A DNA stretch of 64,000 bases. Source: Bacteroidota bacterium. Lineage in GTDB: Bacteria; Bacteroidota; Bacteroidia; JAFLBG01. The stretch spans positions 1 through 64,000 of the forward strand of contig JAFLBG010000001.1 in the NCBI GenBank assembly GCA_017303975.1, given 5' to 3'. Position numbers and translations under genes: made by a program. Numbering within the stretch: position 1 is the first letter of the stretch; each line of letters opens with the position of its first letter. This document shows, piece by piece, positions 6,675 to 40,794 of the stretch. The notes beneath the pieces were generated by a model. The model saw only the letters and a program-made list of their open reading frames with translations. It was not told where the DNA came from and made no database searches.

Positions 6675-8813
6675 ATGTTTAAAAAAATACTAACGTTAAC
6701 CGGATTTTCTCTGATTGCAGTATCACTTATGCAGGCACAGCCTTGTAGTTCTAGCGAAATGACGAATGAGCTAAAGGCAAAAGACCCACAAATTGAGTTG
6801 TTAGAGAAGCAGCACAGAGAATATGTAGCCGACTATATAGCCAATCACAAAAAAGATGGCTCTGCTAAAATGACAACCCTTTATACAATTCCGGTTGTTT
6901 TTCATATCATTCACAATGGTGGCTCCGAAAATGTTTCGGATGCAATAATTCACCAAGAAATTGCAAAACTTAATAAATATTATAGCAAAACCAATAGCGA
7001 TATAACAGCCGTAATACCTTTTTTTGACACCATTGCAGCAGATTGCCAAATAGAATTTAAATTGGCACAACTGGACCCAGAAGGCAACTGCACAAACGGA
7101 ATTGATAGAATACAATCTCAAAAAACATACGTGGGAGATGATGGAGCAAAATTAAATCCATGGCCAAGAGATAAATATTTGAATATTTGGGTGGTAAATA
7201 AAGTTCGCCAAGTTGCATCCTCTGGGGTTACACTTGGATACGCCTATTTCCCTTCTTCTGTAACCGGCACTAATTTTGTTTTTGATGGTCCAATCGTTTC
7301 GTCTTCTACATTAGGAAACAGCCCAAGCTCTGGAGAGCCAACAACTGTTGCTCACGAAATTGGTCACTATTTAGCTTTGTACCATCCTTGGGGCAGTGGT
7401 GAAGTAGCCACAGCATGTGGAGATGACTTTATATACGATACACCGGAAACAAAAGGCTCATTCAGTACTTGTAACCTGAATTTAGCTTCTTGTAATCCTC
7501 CTATAATTGAAAATGTTCAAAATATAATGGATTACTCTAGTTGCACCAACATGTTTACCAGAGACCAAAAGACTGCGATGCATGCAACCTTAAACAGCCC
7601 AATTGCAGGCAGAAACAACCTGTGGCAACCAGCTAATTTAATTGCAACCGGAGTAAACACTCCAACAGCTGTGTGTGCACCTAAAGCTGACTTTTATTTC
7701 GATTCTCCTACAAATTGTGTGGGTTCTAATGTTATTGTAAAAGACAATTCATATGATTCCCCTGCTACTTCATACAGTTGGAATTTTGCAAACGCAACGC
7801 CAGCTACTGCAACATCAAAAAACGTAACAAATGTTGTATTTAATGGCGCAGGATATCAATACGTTAGCTTAACTAGCTTTAACTCTAGCGGTCAAGACAC
7901 TAAAATTAAGACGGATTTTTATACGTTCCCTTCTCCAGCATTGATTAATACGCTTCAACAAGATTTTGAATACATCTCTTCTTTTAGTGACGATTGGTAT
8001 TTATCTAAGTCGGATAAAATCGCCTCCTATGGTTGGTCTGTGGTTAATTTTGCGGGACGAAACAGTACTTCTAGCGCAAAGTTAAATAGCTATTTTGGTG
8101 TTTCTCAAGTTCCTAGCTACTTTATTACACCTCCGGTAAACATTACAAGCATTTCTAGCCCTAAACTTGAATTTTACTATTCTTGTGCTACCGCAGCTTC
8201 TAATACAAACCTAATGTCAGACAAGTTAATTGTTTATGGATCAACCAATTGTGGAAAATCTTGGACTCCAGTTTATACACAAACAAATTCTGTGGCATTA
8301 GCAAATGCTGGATTTTCTTCTGTAGATTACGCTCCTACATCCACAAGCAACTGGACAAAGGTATCTGTAACAATACCAAATATCTTAAAAACAAATAAAA
8401 CGGTTTTTAAATTTGAATTTACTTCTGCAGGAGGTTCCGGACACGTGTCAAATGTCAATTATGAGTCGGAGTTTGGCTATAGCAACAATATTTATATTGA
8501 TGACATTAACATTGGAACCCCTTTGAGTACTGAAGATGAACTTTCTTCTCTAGTTAACTTCCACTCATTCCCAAACCCTACAGAATCGGGCAATTTTTCG
8601 CTTGTAGTTAATTTGCAAGAAGCAACATCACTTGATGTAACTATAAGCAACAATCTGGGACAAACGGTTTACATGTCAAATTTGGGCCAAAAAACAGTTG
8701 GAACTCACCTGTTTGATATCGATTTGTCTAATAAAGATCTTTCAAATGGCATTTACTTTATCAACCTAAAAACTGAAATGGGTTCTGTTCAACGAAAAAT
8801 TATTTTCAACTAA
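6675..8813 (+). CDS. T9SS-secreted M43-type zinc metalloprotease
   Basis: A 712-residue secreted protein. A signal peptide (MFKKILTLTGFSLIAVSLMQAQ) is followed by a pappalysin-like (M43) catalytic domain with the zinc site HEIGHYLALYH (His227, Glu228, His231, His237) and a downstream Met-turn candidate NIMDYSSC. The usual Gly three residues after the second His is Ala here. A PKD-like segment (near residues 340-420) and a beta-rich domain follow, and the protein ends in a type A T9SS sorting domain (FPNPTESGNFSL, with NGIYFINLKT and a basic end). An open frame extends upstream to 6570, but the signal peptide and the promoter fix the ATG at 6675. Confidence 0.85.
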   Translation: MFKKILTLTGFSLIAVSLMQAQPCSSSEMTNELKAKDPQIELLEKQHREYVADYIANHKKDGSAKMTTLYTIPVVFHIIHNGGSENVSDAIIHQEIAKLNKYYSKTNSDITAVIPFFDTIAADCQIEFKLAQLDPEGNCTNGIDRIQSQKTYVGDDGAKLNPWPRDKYLNIWVVNKVRQVASSGVTLGYAYFPSSVTGTNFVFDGPIVSSSTLGNSPSSGEPTTVAHEIGHYLALYHPWGSGEVATACGDDFIYDTPETKGSFSTCNLNLASCNPPIIENVQNIMDYSSCTNMFTRDQKTAMHATLNSPIAGRNNLWQPANLIATGVNTPTAVCAPKADFYFDSPTNCVGSNVIVKDNSYDSPATSYSWNFANATPATATSKNVTNVVFNGAGYQYVSLTSFNSSGQDTKIKTDFYTFPSPALINTLQQDFEYISSFSDDWYLSKSDKIASYGWSVVNFAGRNSTSSAKLNSYFGVSQVPSYFITPPVNITSISSPKLEFYYSCATAASNTNLMSDKLIVYGSTNCGKSWTPVYTQTNSVALANAGFSSVDYAPTSTSNWTKVSVTIPNILKTNKTVFKFEFTSAGGSGHVSNVNYESEFGYSNNIYIDDINIGTPLSTEDELSSLVNFHSFPNPTESGNFSLVVNLQEATSLDVTISNNLGQTVYMSNLGQKTVGTHLFDIDLSNKDLSNGIYFINLKTEMGSVQRKIIFN

Positions 8814-8832
8814 ATTATAGAAACACGTTTTT

Positions 8833-8867
8833 AAAAAATAGGCACTACAAGAGTGCCTATTTTTTTT
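8833..8867 (+). terminator. Intrinsic terminator after the metalloprotease gene
   Basis: A 14-bp stem (8833-8846 with 8852-8865, core TAGGCACT) has a 5-base loop and is followed by eight T residues. It starts 20 bases after the stop codon. Confidence 0.85.
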
Positions 8868-8921
8868 GTATCACAAATTAATTTTACGGTCATTTTAGTA
8901 CCAATCTATAAGAAAATTATA

Positions 8922-8929
8922 TAGCTTTG
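8922..8929 (+). promoter_or_regulatory. -7 promoter element of the ATP synthase operon
   Basis: TAGCTTTG fits TAnnTTTG exactly and is followed by C, as is common in this phylum. It lies about 20 bases before the atpB start. The -33 box is weak. Confidence 0.55.
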
Positions 8930-8949
8930 CACTGCAATTTTAAAATCCG

Positions 8950-10101
8950 TTGTTTGTGTTAGCAAAAAGAAAATTAGTTTTATTTGTTGCAGTATCATTT
9001 ATACTCTCCTTCACTTTTGTTTCAAAATCCTTTTCAACTTCCGAAACACATTCGGATAGTGTAGTTGTTGATGCTGCCGCTATTGAGGATGAGCCTGTGT
9101 TTGATAAAGAAGAACTATCGCACGAGAAAGGTTTTAATGCAGGAGAATTGATAATGGAACACATTGGAGACGCCTACGATTGGCACTTGTGGGGTCATAC
9201 GGCCATCCCTTTGCCTGTTATTATTTATTCCGACAAGGGTTTAGATGTTTTTTTATCAAGCAAGTTTGAACATGGGCACGCTAGTTACCAAGGCAACTAT
9301 AACTATAAATTAATACACGGACACGTAAAAGTCGTAAACAATGCGGGTGAAGAGGATGCTGAAGCAACTGCAAAGCTTTGGGATATATCAATAACAAAAA
9401 ATGTTCTTGCAATATTTGTTACAATTGGTTTAATGATTTGGATGTTTATTAGCGCTGCTAATATGTATAAGCGCAATCCGGGTCAGGCGCCCAAAGGTAT
9501 TCAATCTCTATTAGAGCCTCTTATTGTTTTTGTGCGAGACGAGGTTGCAAAATCAGCCATTGGAGAGAAAAAATACGAGCGCTTTCTTCCATTTTTGCTT
9601 ACCGTTTTCTTCTTTATATGGATTAGTAATTTATTGGGATTAATTCCACTTGTTGGTGGTGCTAATGTTACCGGAAATATTGCCGTTGCGCTTGTTTTAG
9701 CAGCAATGGTTTTTTTGATTACAATTATAAACGGAAATGCCCACTACTGGAAACACACATTAGCAATGCCTGGGGTTCCTGTTGGTGTTTTGTTTATTTT
9801 AACACCAATTGAGATTATAAGTTTGTTTTTGAAACCCTTTGTTTTAATGATACGACTTTTTGCCAACATCATGGCGGGCCATATCATTGCATTGTCTTTC
9901 TTTAGTTTGATATTTATTTTTGCAGAGATGAACGTTGCTCTTGGATTTGGGGTTTCTTTGCTTTCTATTGCATTTACTGTTTTTATGGGATTCTTGGAAT
10001 TGTTGGTTGCTTTTTTACAAGCGTACGTATTTACGTTGCTTACGGCAATGTATTTTGGTTCCGCTGTTGAAGAGGGTCACCATGCAGAAGAGCATCATTA
10101 A
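8950..10101 (+). CDS. atpB: F0F1 ATP synthase subunit a
   Basis: A 383-residue proton-channel subunit. The N terminus is a signal-like hydrophobic segment followed by a roughly 110-residue periplasmic stretch, longer than in E. coli but usual in Bacteroidota. The channel region has several membrane segments, with the essential arginine in LMIRLFANIMAGH (Arg302) and the C-terminal helix ending in a His-rich EEGHHAEEHH tail. There is no ATG at the start: TTG at 8950 or GTG at 8956 must be used, both just downstream of the promoter. It is the first gene of atpBEFHAG. Confidence 0.95.
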   Translation: MFVLAKRKLVLFVAVSFILSFTFVSKSFSTSETHSDSVVVDAAAIEDEPVFDKEELSHEKGFNAGELIMEHIGDAYDWHLWGHTAIPLPVIIYSDKGLDVFLSSKFEHGHASYQGNYNYKLIHGHVKVVNNAGEEDAEATAKLWDISITKNVLAIFVTIGLMIWMFISAANMYKRNPGQAPKGIQSLLEPLIVFVRDEVAKSAIGEKKYERFLPFLLTVFFFIWISNLLGLIPLVGGANVTGNIAVALVLAAMVFLITIINGNAHYWKHTLAMPGVPVGVLFILTPIEIISLFLKPFVLMIRLFANIMAGHIIALSFFSLIFIFAEMNVALGFGVSLLSIAFTVFMGFLELLVAFLQAYVFTLLTAMYFGSAVEEGHHAEEHH

Positions 10102-32765: not shown

Positions 32766-35700
32766 TTATACGACAATGTTGACAATTTTGTTCGGTACCA
32801 CTATAATTTTTTTAGGTGCTTTTCCTTCTAGAATTTTTTGCGTTTGTTCAAGCGCAAGCACCTCTTTTTCAACATCTTCCTTGCTTAATGCCAAATCTAA
32901 TTCATGGAAAAATTTTGTTTTTCCGTTGATGGAAACCGGGTATTTGAAAGAACTTTCAACTAAGTATTCCTCCTTAAATTCGGGAAATTGAGCATTTACA
33001 ATGCTTTTATACCCATGCGGAATAGCGTTAATATCAAAGCTTTCGCCATACTGTAATTTAGCCCATAGCATTTCGGCTATATGCGGTGCATACGGAGCAA
33101 TGATAATAGCCAAAGGCTCCAAAATAGCTTTTTTGTTGCATTTTAAGTCGGTTAATTCATTTACACAAATCATAAAATTGCTTACCGAGGTATTGAACGA
33201 AAAACGCTCAATATCATCAACTACTTTTTTAATGGTTTTGTGTAACGCCTTTAATTCCTCTTTTGTAGGGGCATCGTTGCTTACATTGAAAGCTCCAACC
33301 CCTCCCTGACCCTCCCCCGGGAGGGAATGATATAGTCTCCACAATTTTTTTAAGAAGCCGTGCACGCCTGTAATACCATTGGTATTCCACGGTTTATGTT
33401 GCTCCAATGGACCCAAAAACATTTCATACAAGCGTAGTGTGTCTGCGCTGTAGTCACGAACAATATCATCTGGATTTACAACATTGTATTTGGATTTGGA
33501 CATTTTTTCTGACTCTCGTCCACAAATGTATTTTCCATCCTCTTCACAAAAAATTTCATCAATTAATAGTGATTTATATCTTTCACTATTTTTAAATCCC
33601 TGAACGTCTAGCTCGTTAGAAATTGGATCGACAAGACTAATATCTACATGAACAGGATGAACACTTTGCATCTTTTCTGCTAACGTAATGCTATTAAATC
33701 CTAGTTGTTTTTGTCTTTCCAACTCATTTCTTTGTATTGACTCGATTAATTGATCTTTTAAACCTTTGTTGAAATTATCATACGATGATTTTGGGACAAT
33801 GTACTTTTGAGCATTTGGCATACCATTCACATCTAAATTATCAAGAAATGGCATGGTAAGACCTGTTGAAAAACCATACACAAACGCACTCACCCCCTGT
33901 ATCATCCCTTGATTAATCAACTTTTTAGCGGGTTCTTGAATATTGATATAACCTAAGTCGGCTAAAAACTTTGTCCAGAAACGCACATAGAGCAAATGCC
34001 CTGTAGCGTGCTCTGCACCGCCAATGTACAAATCTACATTTTGCCAATAATCAGCAGCTTCTTTAGATACAAACTCATTTGGATTTTTTGCATCCATGTA
34101 ACGCAAGTAATACCAGCTACTTCCAGCCCAACCGGGCATAGTGGTAGTTTCCAAAGGAAAAGCGGCCCCTCCTAAATCCTCCCCATTAGGGAGGACTTTT
34201 GTGTCGAGCTCCGATTTTAATTTTTGCACGACCCTATCTACATCAGCAAGTATTTCCTCGTTTTTATACCGAACTACTGAAAACCCCGCTAATTCAAGTT
34301 GTTGGGTTCTCAATTCATCTTGTTCTTTCTGAAAATCATGGTACTTACCATCTACTTCAATAACAACCTTTTTTTCTAAGCAAACAAAGTCTGCAATACT
34401 TGTGCCTATTACATGTTGTCTTCGAATTTTATAACCCAACTGCTCCTTTCGAATATGCTCCCAAAGCACTGACTCTGCCTCAGTTTGATCTTTTCTTTTT
34501 TCTCTTGACAACTCCTTTGTAGCAGGCCAAATAGTTTTATCAGCAGTATGAAACGAAGGGCTTGCCTTCCCCTCTCCCCTCTGGGGAGAGCCGGAGTGGG
34601 GCCTATACATCCAACCCTTAGCCCTTGCTAATGGCGGCTCTCCTGTTTCGGTAGGTAAAAATTTATCTATTTCGGGCAATTCAATTGGTAGGTCTTTTTC
34701 ATCTACTGCATAAGGAATTCCGTCTTTGTAATAGATAGGAATAGGCTCTCCCCAATAGCGTTGGCGGCCAAACACGGCATCACGCAAACGATAATTTATT
34801 TCTCTTTTTCCTAATCCACTTTTTTCAATTTCGTCAATCGCCTTCTTCATGGCTTGTTTCACGTCCATGCCATTTAAAAAATCCGAATTAACTAGTGTTC
34901 CCTCCTTTGCTTCGTATGCTTCCTTACTTATATCGCCTCCCTTAACAACCTCGGTAATGGGCAAATTGAAGTGCTTTGCAAATGCATAGTCGCGGCTATC
35001 GTGCGCAGGAACTGCCATTACAGCACCTGTTCCATATCCGGCTAAAACATAATCGCCAATCCAAACAGGAATAGGCTTTTGCGTAAACGGATGTAACACA
35101 TAAGAACCTGTAAACTGCCCACTGATGCGCTTTACATCAGCTTGTCGTTCGCGCTCACTTCTATTTTTAGATACTTGTACGTATTCATCAACAGCCTTTT
35201 TATTCTCCGGTGTTGTTATTTGGCTTACCAATTCATGTTCCGGAGCAAGTGTTACAAAAGAAACACCGAAAACGGTATCTGGTCTAGTTGTAAAAACCTC
35301 TATCTCAAACTTTGAACTTTCAACTTTGAACTTTAAACTAGTACCTTCCGATCGTCCTATCCAATTGCGTTGCGCCTCTTTGATACTTTCGCTCCAATCT
35401 ATTCCATCTAAATCTTTTAGTAAACGCTCTGCATAAGCCGTAATTCGAAGGCTCCACTGCTTCATCATTTTTCTTTCTACCGGATAGCCTCCTCGTTCGG
35501 ATACACCATCTTTTACCTCATCATTGGCCAACACTGTTCCCAATTGCGGACACCAGTTTACAACAGCTTCTCCCAAGTACGCCAAACGATACTCTTGCAA
35601 TACCATTTGCTTTTCTGCTTCCGAAAGCTCTTTCCAAGCCTTGCCAACGTTTTCGTGCTTTGTATTTTGTGTTTCGAATTTTTGTATAAGCGTCTCTATT

Positions 35701-36167
35701 GGCTCAGCCTTATTGGTTTCCGGGTTGTACCAACTATTAAATAATTTAATAAAAATCCATTGTGTCCATTTATAATAGTTTGGATCGCACGTTTTAACTT
35801 CTCTATCCCAATCAAAGGAAAAACCTAATTTATCTAGCTGTTCGCGATATCTCTTTAAATTTTTTTCGGTTGTAACAGCAGGATGTTGCCCGGTTTGAAT
35901 AGCATATTGCTCGGCAGGTAAACCAAACGCATCGTAACCCATAGGATGCAACACATTAAATCCTTTTAAGCGTTTGTAGCGACTTACAATATCAGACGCA
36001 ATGTATCCCAATGGATGCCCCACATGTAGCCCGGCTCCGGATGGATACGGAAACATATCCAATGCATAATACTTTGGTTTCGATTTGTCAATCTCTGCCT
36101 TATATACATTATTTTGGGCCCAGTATTGTTGCCATTTTTTTTCGCTTTCAGAAAAATTGTATTCCAT
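32766..36167 (-). CDS. leuS: Leucyl-tRNA synthetase with in-frame mobile insertions
   Basis: A 1133-residue class I synthetase, about 200 longer than usual. The HIGH-type motif is HVGH (48-51), the CP1 editing domain has [20 protein letters not shown] and [14 protein letters not shown], and KMSKS starts at Met889. The normal flanking sequence PPLARAKGW and [23 protein letters not shown] is split by a 146-codon block (34165-34602, about residues 522-668) that encodes a DUF559 nuclease domain. A solo hairpin repeat (33299-33325) adds about 11 residues near 948. A longer-than-usual segment lies between about residues 762 and 839. All of it is in frame with no stop, so one long enzyme is probably made. 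Confidence 0.9.
33299..33325. repeat. Solo hairpin repeat inside leuS
   Basis: CCCTCCC (33310-33316) and GGGAGGG (33319-33325) form a perfect hairpin, preceded on the plus strand by CCCCTCCC (33299-33306) and TGA. The layout (arm CCCCTCC, short spacer, G/C-rich hairpin) equals that of the two repeats that flank the DUF559 block. It is translated in frame as LPGEGQGGV within an LWRLYHS...FNVSN stretch that is contiguous in relatives as far as I recall. Confidence 0.75.
34165..34195. repeat. Hairpin repeat, inner-3' end of the leuS element
   Basis: GCCCCTCC (34165-34172), spacer TAAA, then TCCTCCCC-ATTA-GGGAGGA (34177-34195) with a 7-bp stem. It is the inverted partner of the repeat at 34572-34602. 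Confidence 0.8.
34572..34602. repeat. Hairpin repeat, inner-5' end of the leuS element
   Basis: CTCTCCCC (34572-34579), loop TCT, GGGGAGAG (34583-34590) is a perfect 8-bp stem, followed by CCGGAGTGGGGC (34591-34602). The outer arm GGAGTGGGGC is complementary in type to GCCCCTCC at the other end of the element. Confidence 0.8.
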
Positions 36168-38297: not shown

Positions 38298-39020
38298 ATG
38301 AACAAACTTGCGGATATACAAACACAGCCCTTAAACTACGAACTAACGCATTCTTTAGCAGAATACGAAGCTGGAAAAGTTTTGTTAATTGACAAACCCT
38401 ACGGATGGACATCTTTTCAGGCAGTAAACAAAATCAAGTATGCAATCAAACATCAATTTAAAAAAATAATTAAAATAGGACATGCCGGAACCCTTGACCC
38501 ACTTGCTACAGGGCTGCTTATTGTTTGTACCGGAAAAGCCACAAAAACAATAGACCAAATACAAGCACTGCCCAAGGAATACACCGGAACTTTTTTTCTT
38601 GGAGCCACCACACCTTGTTTTGATTTAGAAAAAGAGGTGGACGCTACTTACCCCACAGAACATATTACCAACAAACTCATATACCAAGCCGCCAAAGACT
38701 TTGAGGGTGATATTATGCAAACACCACCCGTTTTTTCGGCAGTAAAAATAAATGGAAAAAGAGCGTACGATTACGCTAGGGCAGGACAAGAAGTAGAAAT
38801 AAAGGCAAAGCCAATTACAATCTATTCGTTTGAAGTAACAAAAATAGAAATGCCCCTACTGCACTTTAAAATTAAATGCAGCAAAGGCACATATATCAGA
38901 TCTATAGCAAGAGACTTTGGATTGGCATTAAATAGTGGCGCACACCTGACTTCGCTTAGAAGGACAATGATTGGAGAGTATAACCTATCTAACGTCACTA
39001 ATATAAAGGTTGACATCTAA
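38298..39020 (+). CDS. truB: tRNA pseudouridine(55) synthase
   Basis: A 240-residue TruB that makes the pseudouridine of the T loop. The catalytic Asp67 lies in GHAGTLDPLATGLL, preceded by the KPYGWTSFQAV entry motif, with PPVFSAVKINGKRAYDYAR and CSKGTYIRSIARDFG as further landmarks. Length is short but within the range. It ends convergently with the downstream peptide gene, with a 2-base stop-codon overlap. Confidence 0.96.
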   Translation: MNKLADIQTQPLNYELTHSLAEYEAGKVLLIDKPYGWTSFQAVNKIKYAIKHQFKKIIKIGHAGTLDPLATGLLIVCTGKATKTIDQIQALPKEYTGTFFLGATTPCFDLEKEVDATYPTEHITNKLIYQAAKDFEGDIMQTPPVFSAVKINGKRAYDYARAGQEVEIKAKPITIYSFEVTKIEMPLLHFKIKCSKGTYIRSIARDFGLALNSGAHLTSLRRTMIGEYNLSNVTNIKVDI

Positions 39021-39262
39021 TCAATATAATAACACTCCCAGATTATCAACGTTGTAAGTGCTGTCAATTTTGGTGTGCTTGTCTTTTCTCTTAGGCAACC
39101 AGGTTTAGAACCCTCATCAACAGTACAAATTGCCTTTGTATCACAAACTTGCGGATTTGTAACACTAGAAGTGTCGCCACCACCAACAGTTTGTTTTTGA
39201 TTTTTATCAAGCTCTGTTACAAAGCTCTCTACTTTTAATTCACTTAAGGTTAATTTCTTCAT
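39017..39262 (-). CDS. RiPP-like precursor peptide (pinensin-type leader), copy 1
   Basis: An 81-residue peptide. Its N terminus (MKKLTLSELKVESFVTELDKN, then KQTVGGG) matches the leader of Bacteroidota GG-type/pinensin-like RiPP precursors. After the GG site comes a core with four Cys and many Thr/Ser, ending SKPGCLREKTSTPKL and WECYYID. It is paralogous to the gene directly upstream, with the same C-terminal pattern (GSxPxC..., LxLI-W-x-C-x-YID). No LanB/LanC, C39 peptidase or exporter gene lies nearby. The start ATG at 39262 gives the normal leader. The longer frame to 39298 is less likely. Confidence 0.6.
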   Translation of the reverse strand: MKKLTLSELKVESFVTELDKNQKQTVGGGDTSSVTNPQVCDTKAICTVDEGSKPGCLREKTSTPKLTALTTLIIWECYYID

Positions 39263-39307
39263 GGTAATTTTTTTAATAGTATTCAAACAAAAATTCAATA
39301 CAGCTAG

Positions 39308-39559
39308 TTAATCAATGTAAAGGCATTGCCAAAAAATTAAAGTACCCAATCCTAATAATTGATCTATGGGATGCGTCTTTGCTCTTACACATGTTGGCCT
39401 AGAACCGCAATTATTTCCGCACTTTGTACCCAACTCCGATTCGTTCTGACAACCATACGCATTACTTGCGCCATTTATGGTTTGCTTTTCTTCGGCAGAA
39501 AGGCTGGTAACGAAACTTTCTACCTTAATTTCTTTTAAACTCAATTTAGCTGCTTTCAT
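39308..39559 (-). CDS. RiPP-like precursor peptide (pinensin-type leader), copy 2
   Basis: An 83-residue peptide with the leader KLSLKEIKVESFVTSLSAEE followed by KQTINGASN. The core has five Cys (GCQNE, TKCGNNCG, TCVR, WQC) and ends GLGTLIFWQCLYID. The leader and C-terminal parts align with copy 1, while the middle differs. It lies 45 bases upstream of copy 1 on the same strand. The double glycine is NG-A in this copy, so cleavage by a GG peptidase is uncertain. Function unknown. Confidence 0.6.
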   Translation of the reverse strand: MKAAKLSLKEIKVESFVTSLSAEEKQTINGASNAYGCQNESELGTKCGNNCGSRPTCVRAKTHPIDQLLGLGTLIFWQCLYID

Positions 39560-39744: not shown

Positions 39745-40794
39745 ATGAAATTATCGCAGTTTAAATTCAACCTGCCCAAAGATGCCATTGCAGAAAACCC
39801 TGCAAAAAACCGTGAAGACGCCAGAATGATGGTAGTTCACCGCAAAACAGGCAAAATAGAACACAAAAAGTTTAAAGATATTATCAACTATTTTGATGAT
39901 GGCGATGCCTTTATTTTAAATGATACCAAAGTTTTCCCGGCACGTATGTACGGCAACAAGGAAAAAACCGGTGCTAAAATTGAGGTTTTTTTATTACGCG
40001 AATTAAATAGAGAAAGCCGACTGTGGGATGTATTGGTAGATCCTGCTCGTAAAATAAGAATTGGTAACAAACTATATTTTGGTGATGACGATTCATTAGT
40101 AGCAGAAGTTATTGACAATACAACATCAAGAGGTAGAACGCTACGTTTCTTGTTTGATGGACCTTACGAAGATTTCAAAAAAACAATTGAAACATTAGGA
40201 GAAACTCCACTGCCTAAATACGTTCGTAGAACACCAACTGAAGATGACAAAGAACGCTACCAAACCGTATATGCACGCAACGAAGGTGCAGTAGCTGCGC
40301 CAACAGCAGGAATGCACTTTAGCAAAGAGTTGCTAAAACGTATGGAGCTTAAAGGAATTAACTTTGCAAACATTACACTTCATATCGGACTTGGAACATT
40401 CAGACCGGTAGAGGTAGAGGATTTGACAAAGCATAAAATGGATTCGGAAGATGTTGAAATTTTGCAAAGTGCTGTGGATATTGTAAATAAAGCAAAAGAC
40501 AATAAAAAAAGAGTGTGTGCTGTAGGTACCACTACCATGCGTTCTATAGAAACTTCTGTTTCAACAACCGGTCATTTAAAACCATACAAAGGTTGGACAA
40601 ACAAATTTATTTTTCCTCCGTATGATTTTAGTGTTGCAAATGCCATGGTAACCAACTTTCATTTGCCTGAATCAACTCTTTTAATGATGGCGTGTGCGTT
40701 TGGTGGATATGATTTGATAATGAAGGCATACAAAGAGGCTATAAAAGAAAAGTATAAGTTTTTCTCTTATGGCGATGCGATGCTGATTTTGTAA
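39745..40794 (+). CDS. queA: S-adenosylmethionine:tRNA ribosyltransferase-isomerase
   Basis: A 349-residue QueA that transfers and isomerises the ribosyl part of SAM onto preQ1-tRNA to make epoxyqueuosine. Motifs are the N-terminal [29 protein letters not shown]-type [11 protein letters not shown], and [13 protein letters not shown], with [23 protein letters not shown]. Length is typical. It closes the ftsX-truB-queA cluster. Confidence 0.97.

Follow-up and report, generated by a model that had tools for sequence, protein, structure and literature searches.

Two adjacent short genes between truB and queA, here called P1 and P2, probably encode precursors of class I lanthipeptides that carry a pinensin-family leader and, judging from sequence comparison, would be matured in trans by an enzyme set shared with other precursors and encoded elsewhere in the genome. 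Both are read from the minus strand in the same orientation, P2 followed by P1 with a gap of 45 bp, and the ORF map of the window (the whole 64-kb stretch of DNA analyzed) agrees with the position between the housekeeping genes truB and queA given by the initial annotation. The features of this interval are as follows:

38298..39020 (+), truB, convergent with P1; ORF, named by sequence recognition without a family search
39017..39262 (-), precursor P1, 81 aa, downstream of P2; ORF with NF038180 match of 44.9 bits
39020..39112 (-), P1 C-terminal core module, GSKPGC...TLIIWECYYID; alignment, selection and shuffle test
39176..39262 (-), P1 leader, ending in TVGGG (double-glycine motif); NF038180 match and leader comparison
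39308..39559 (-), precursor P2, 83 aa, first in a putative bicistron; ORF with NF038180 match of 42.1 bits
39311..39406 (-), P2 C-terminal core module, GSRPTC...TLIFWQCLYID; alignment, selection and shuffle test
39467..39559 (-), P2 leader, ending in TINGA (GG/GA-type cleavage motif); NF038180 match and leader comparison
39745..40794 (+), queA, divergent from P2; ORF, named by sequence recognition

The stop codon of P1 overlaps the 3' end of truB. Its start codon is an ATG; mechanical extension would reach a TTG at 39298, the use of which is unlikely. A Bacteroidota -7-like element, TACCTTTG, is found upstream of queA on the plus strand, and no upstream element common to the precursors was detected besides A/T-rich words. 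At the P1/P2 site, we observed no notable flanking repeats, terminator or composition shift pointing to a recent insertion. Elsewhere in the window, the leuS frame (32766-36167, 1,133 aa) contains an apparently inserted stretch of ~110 aa resembling a DUF559-type endonuclease, a putative assignment made by eye.

The leaders of P1 and P2 belong to the known pinensin-lanthipeptide leader family. Neither peptide matched Pfam, and the matches of both to the NCBIfam model NF038180 (leader_pinensin) exceed its curated cutoff of 24 bits. The leader consensus is KLxLxEIKVESFVT...T[IV]xG[GA], with P2 ending in NGA instead of GG. The alignment of the two peptides, 49% identical across its length, confirms the initial description of a pair that is alike in leader and C-terminal module and diverged in the middle: the pS/pN values are 0.91/0.29 in the leader and 0.71/0.33 in the C-terminal module, against 0.75/0.53 in the middle. 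With synonymous differences close to saturation (0.71-0.91 per site) and the amino acids held in the leader and C terminus, P1 and P2 are genuine genes under protein-level selection, with a faster-changing middle. The resemblance extends beyond the leaders, the cores alone giving a local alignment score of 85 compared with a maximum of 53 in 20,000 shuffles.

The cores contain four cysteines in P1 and five in P2. Two of these are common to both cores, each with a Ser or Thr at a fixed spacing (SxxxC and TxxxxxC; n = 2 sequences), and the remaining cysteines differ. This spacing would most likely fit two common (methyl)lanthionine rings together with a variable part. The P1/P2 core (GSxPxC...TLIxWxCxYID) was absent from the viral contigs and plasmids searched, and searches of the genome contigs with leader and C-terminal patterns and of 395 genomes of the class, which included no close relative of the host, gave leader relatives only and no core of the P1/P2 type. 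The earlier suggestion of a distinct peptide family thus holds for the core, found nowhere else among the sequences searched, but not for the leader, which is that of the known family NF038180.

We found no match to LanB, LanC or C39 within the 64-kb window and no CxxxCxxC radical-SAM motif among its frames of at least 200 aa, in agreement with the initial annotation, which had reported that such enzymes were lacking nearby and had raised, as one of two possibilities, a reliance on distant ones to be sought in the genome. The host genome (3.43 Mb in 70 contigs, 99.8% complete) indeed contains a complete pinensin-type set at three other loci, and the proposal is supported. On contig C23, a single Lant_dehydr_N protein (LanB-N, 1,016 aa) adjoins a single Lant_dehydr_C protein (LanB-C, 332 aa); contig C10 carries a single LanC of 661 aa with WCHG and LCHG zinc-ligand motifs; and contig C8 encodes an HlyD adaptor together with a single C39-peptidase ABC exporter (730 aa). 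The exporter keeps Cys16, His90 and Asp106 in its C39 peptidase and, along its entire length including the peptidase, matches PCAT1-type bacteriocin transporters of solved structure (4ry2 and others). All frames at the enzyme loci are intact. We considered assembly fragmentation as a cause of the dispersal and rejected it: because the LanB pair, LanC and the exporter are all contig-internal with unrelated genes on both sides, their separation is not an assembly break.

LanB-N (L019:10320-13370) contains a charged, K/E-rich low-complexity insert at residues ~430-490 and is longer than its relatives of 969-971 aa. LanC (L023:13381-15366) and its relatives at L041, L043, L088 and L095 measure 660-696 aa; their first ~420 aa score best as a LanM cyclase half and are followed by a C-terminal extension of ~230 aa with no Pfam or NCBIfam match.

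Counting P1 and P2, the host genome contains 12 ORFs with a pinensin leader above the cutoff, the other ten included, at eight loci. They occur singly or paired on contigs C1, C4, C5, C6, C7, C10, C13 and C24, and none adjoins LanB or LanC, the closest being 9 kb from LanC. Mean pairwise identity among the 12 is 57% for leaders and 29% for cores, and the leader ends in G[GA] in all but one. The precursors C24, C4b, C10, C13 and C6a are visibly of one core type, and the window pair forms a type of its own. P1 and P2 seem orphaned because the precursors are scattered over eight places and the enzymes lie on three other stretches; mining that starts from LanB/LanC neighborhoods overlooks such precursors. 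One precursor, C6b (L025:4949-5161), has a core without cysteines and hence cannot form lanthionine rings; it is possibly decayed or differently modified. This case, the placement of precursors singly in unrelated contexts and the lack of local enzymes could be taken to mean that P1 and P2 are decaying, functionless remnants of a lost cluster. We regard this as highly improbable, given the contrast between their silent and amino acid sites and the intact frames of both the pair and the enzymes.

Regarding the possibility raised initially that homologs always form part of a known lanthipeptide cluster, the outcome is divided: leader relatives do occur in canonical clusters (L041, L095 and L096), whereas the members in the host genome do not. 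The cluster at L041, from a Flammeovirgaceae MAG, comprises two precursors, a C39 exporter, LanC, HlyD, LanB-N and LanB-C, and that at L095, from genome G354, comprises an exporter, HlyD, LanB-N, LanB-C, four precursors and LanC. Compared over their full length with the proteins of these two clusters, the host proteins show identities of 60-65% for the exporter, 36-43% for LanB-N, 34-38% for LanC and 38-43% for HlyD, and the host LanB-C is 47% identical to that of L095. A MAG labeled Ignavibacteria, outside Bacteroidia, has approximately four pinensin-leader-like precursors with LanB-C and LanC (L043). Among the 395 class genomes, Lant_dehydr_C was present in all five that bear the leader and in 40 of the 390 others (Fisher P = 1.6e-5). 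The five come from five different families, the weakest case being G011, where the LanB-C match is weak and LanC was not seen within the 19 kb read. A further genome, G046, has seven leader matches on six contigs; its C10 groups LanC, one LanB-C and one precursor, C14 has a second LanB-C and an exporter, and no LanB-N was located. This partly dispersed arrangement suggests that the scattered layout is not unique to the host.

The co-occurrence bears on another reading, in which the C39 exporter removes the leaders of P1 and P2 and secretes the peptides, but these receive no thioethers; their cysteines would form disulfides, and they would act as an unmodified bacteriocin or signal pair. Such a pair could make use of the GG/GA motif and the C39 exporter, both of which exist, and of the four and five core cysteines, and would agree with the lack of a modification enzyme nearby. 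The leader, however, is of the lanthipeptide-specific pinensin type and goes beyond a mere GG signal, it was never found without LanB-C in the class sample, and LanB and LanC are complete in the host; we therefore consider an unmodified pair quite unlikely.

Under the favored reading of maturation in trans, the leader would dock on the stand-alone LanB-N, which would glutamylate Ser and Thr of the core using Glu-tRNA, the established donor for class I dehydratases (PMC9993889). The neighboring LanB-C would then eliminate glutamate to give dehydroamino acids, LanC would close (methyl)lanthionine rings, for which the SxxxC and TxxxxxC pairs are the likeliest sites, and the C39-ABC exporter with HlyD would cut after GG/GA and secrete the product, this single enzyme set acting on all 12 scattered precursors. 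Bacteroidetes leaders of the LxLxK type ending in GG have been linked with C39 proteases, and pinensin LanBs are split and pinensin-family LanCs LanM-like (Walker et al., PMC7268733). We infer the action of the remote enzymes on P1 and P2 from leader similarity alone; the reactions, the ring pattern, export and any activity of the products are predictions of the same sequence-based kind. As to the biological role, our best guess would be antagonism, perhaps exerted by the two peptides as a pair.

A role in signaling deserves separate consideration, as many precursor loci lie close to members of a protein family that we call A3. These are helical proteins of ~490-520 aa; the one member scanned matched neither Pfam nor NCBIfam models, and the PDB hits were weak and TPR-like. 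Examples are the following:

L020:5363-6832 (+), A3 member, host
L022:322-1773 (+), A3 member, host
L023:5902-7407 and 7432-8970 (+), A3 members, host
L025:2721-4214 (+), A3 member, host
L026:4850-6322 (-), A3 member, host
L090:6274-7830 (-), A3 member, G046
L092:4475-6040 (-), A3 member, G046

A3 proteins are located at most 10 kb from six of the eight precursor loci in the host (P ~4e-6 under random placement) and adjoin two of the seven precursors in G046 (P = 0.03). This could indicate that P1 and P2 are signaling peptides, modified or not, with cognate receptors, the A3 family (~500 aa) being the candidate partner. The window, however, contains no A3 member, and none was seen around the C4 pair in the 9 kb read there; the family is also encoded in genomes that lack the leader, and its TPR-like sequence similarity is weak. 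Signaling, the second alternative of the initial annotation, is an unlikely explanation.

Maturation in trans would place the host system close to several known ones. Pinensin-type clusters of Bacteroidota (pinensins; NF038180; Walker et al. 2020, PMC7268733, precursor family I 17) share with it the leader, the split LanB, the LanM-like LanC and the C39 exporter with a GG-type leader, but in the host the precursors and enzymes are unlinked, and the core of P1 and P2 is unrelated to the other cores found in our searches. In two-peptide lantibiotics such as roseocin (PMC10027976), the leader is likewise conserved between the two precursors and the cores differ, comparable to the adjacent and co-oriented P1 and P2; unlike those precursors, P1 and P2 also share their C termini and have no local synthetase. 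In the class II prochlorosins and synechococsins (ProcM/SyncM; PMC10783134), few enzymes serve many scattered precursors that have a leader in common but diverse cores, as proposed here, although the enzyme there is a LanM and the leader of Nif11 type, in contrast to the class I split LanB and LanC and the pinensin leader of the host, and the precursors number 29-79 compared with 12. ProcM, moreover, carries a CCG motif that has been linked to promiscuity, whereas the host LanC has the ordinary CHG motif.

The leader and enzymes are of a known kind, and the likeliest interpretation is that the scattered layout is the one known from class II prochlorosins, here combined with class I enzymes. 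Our literature search, mostly of freely accessible papers, found no description of dispersed class I precursors in Bacteroidota. Tentatively, and with rather less confidence, the whole may be seen as a class I counterpart of the prochlorosins, in which a scattered precursor library is served by one unlinked set of split LanB, LanC and exporter and many loci include an A3 protein as receptor, regulator or immunity protein. Should a single set of split LanB and LanC indeed process 12 diverse cores, this would represent a naturally promiscuous class I set of interest for engineering and a second, independent case of the scattered-library design known from the prochlorosins.
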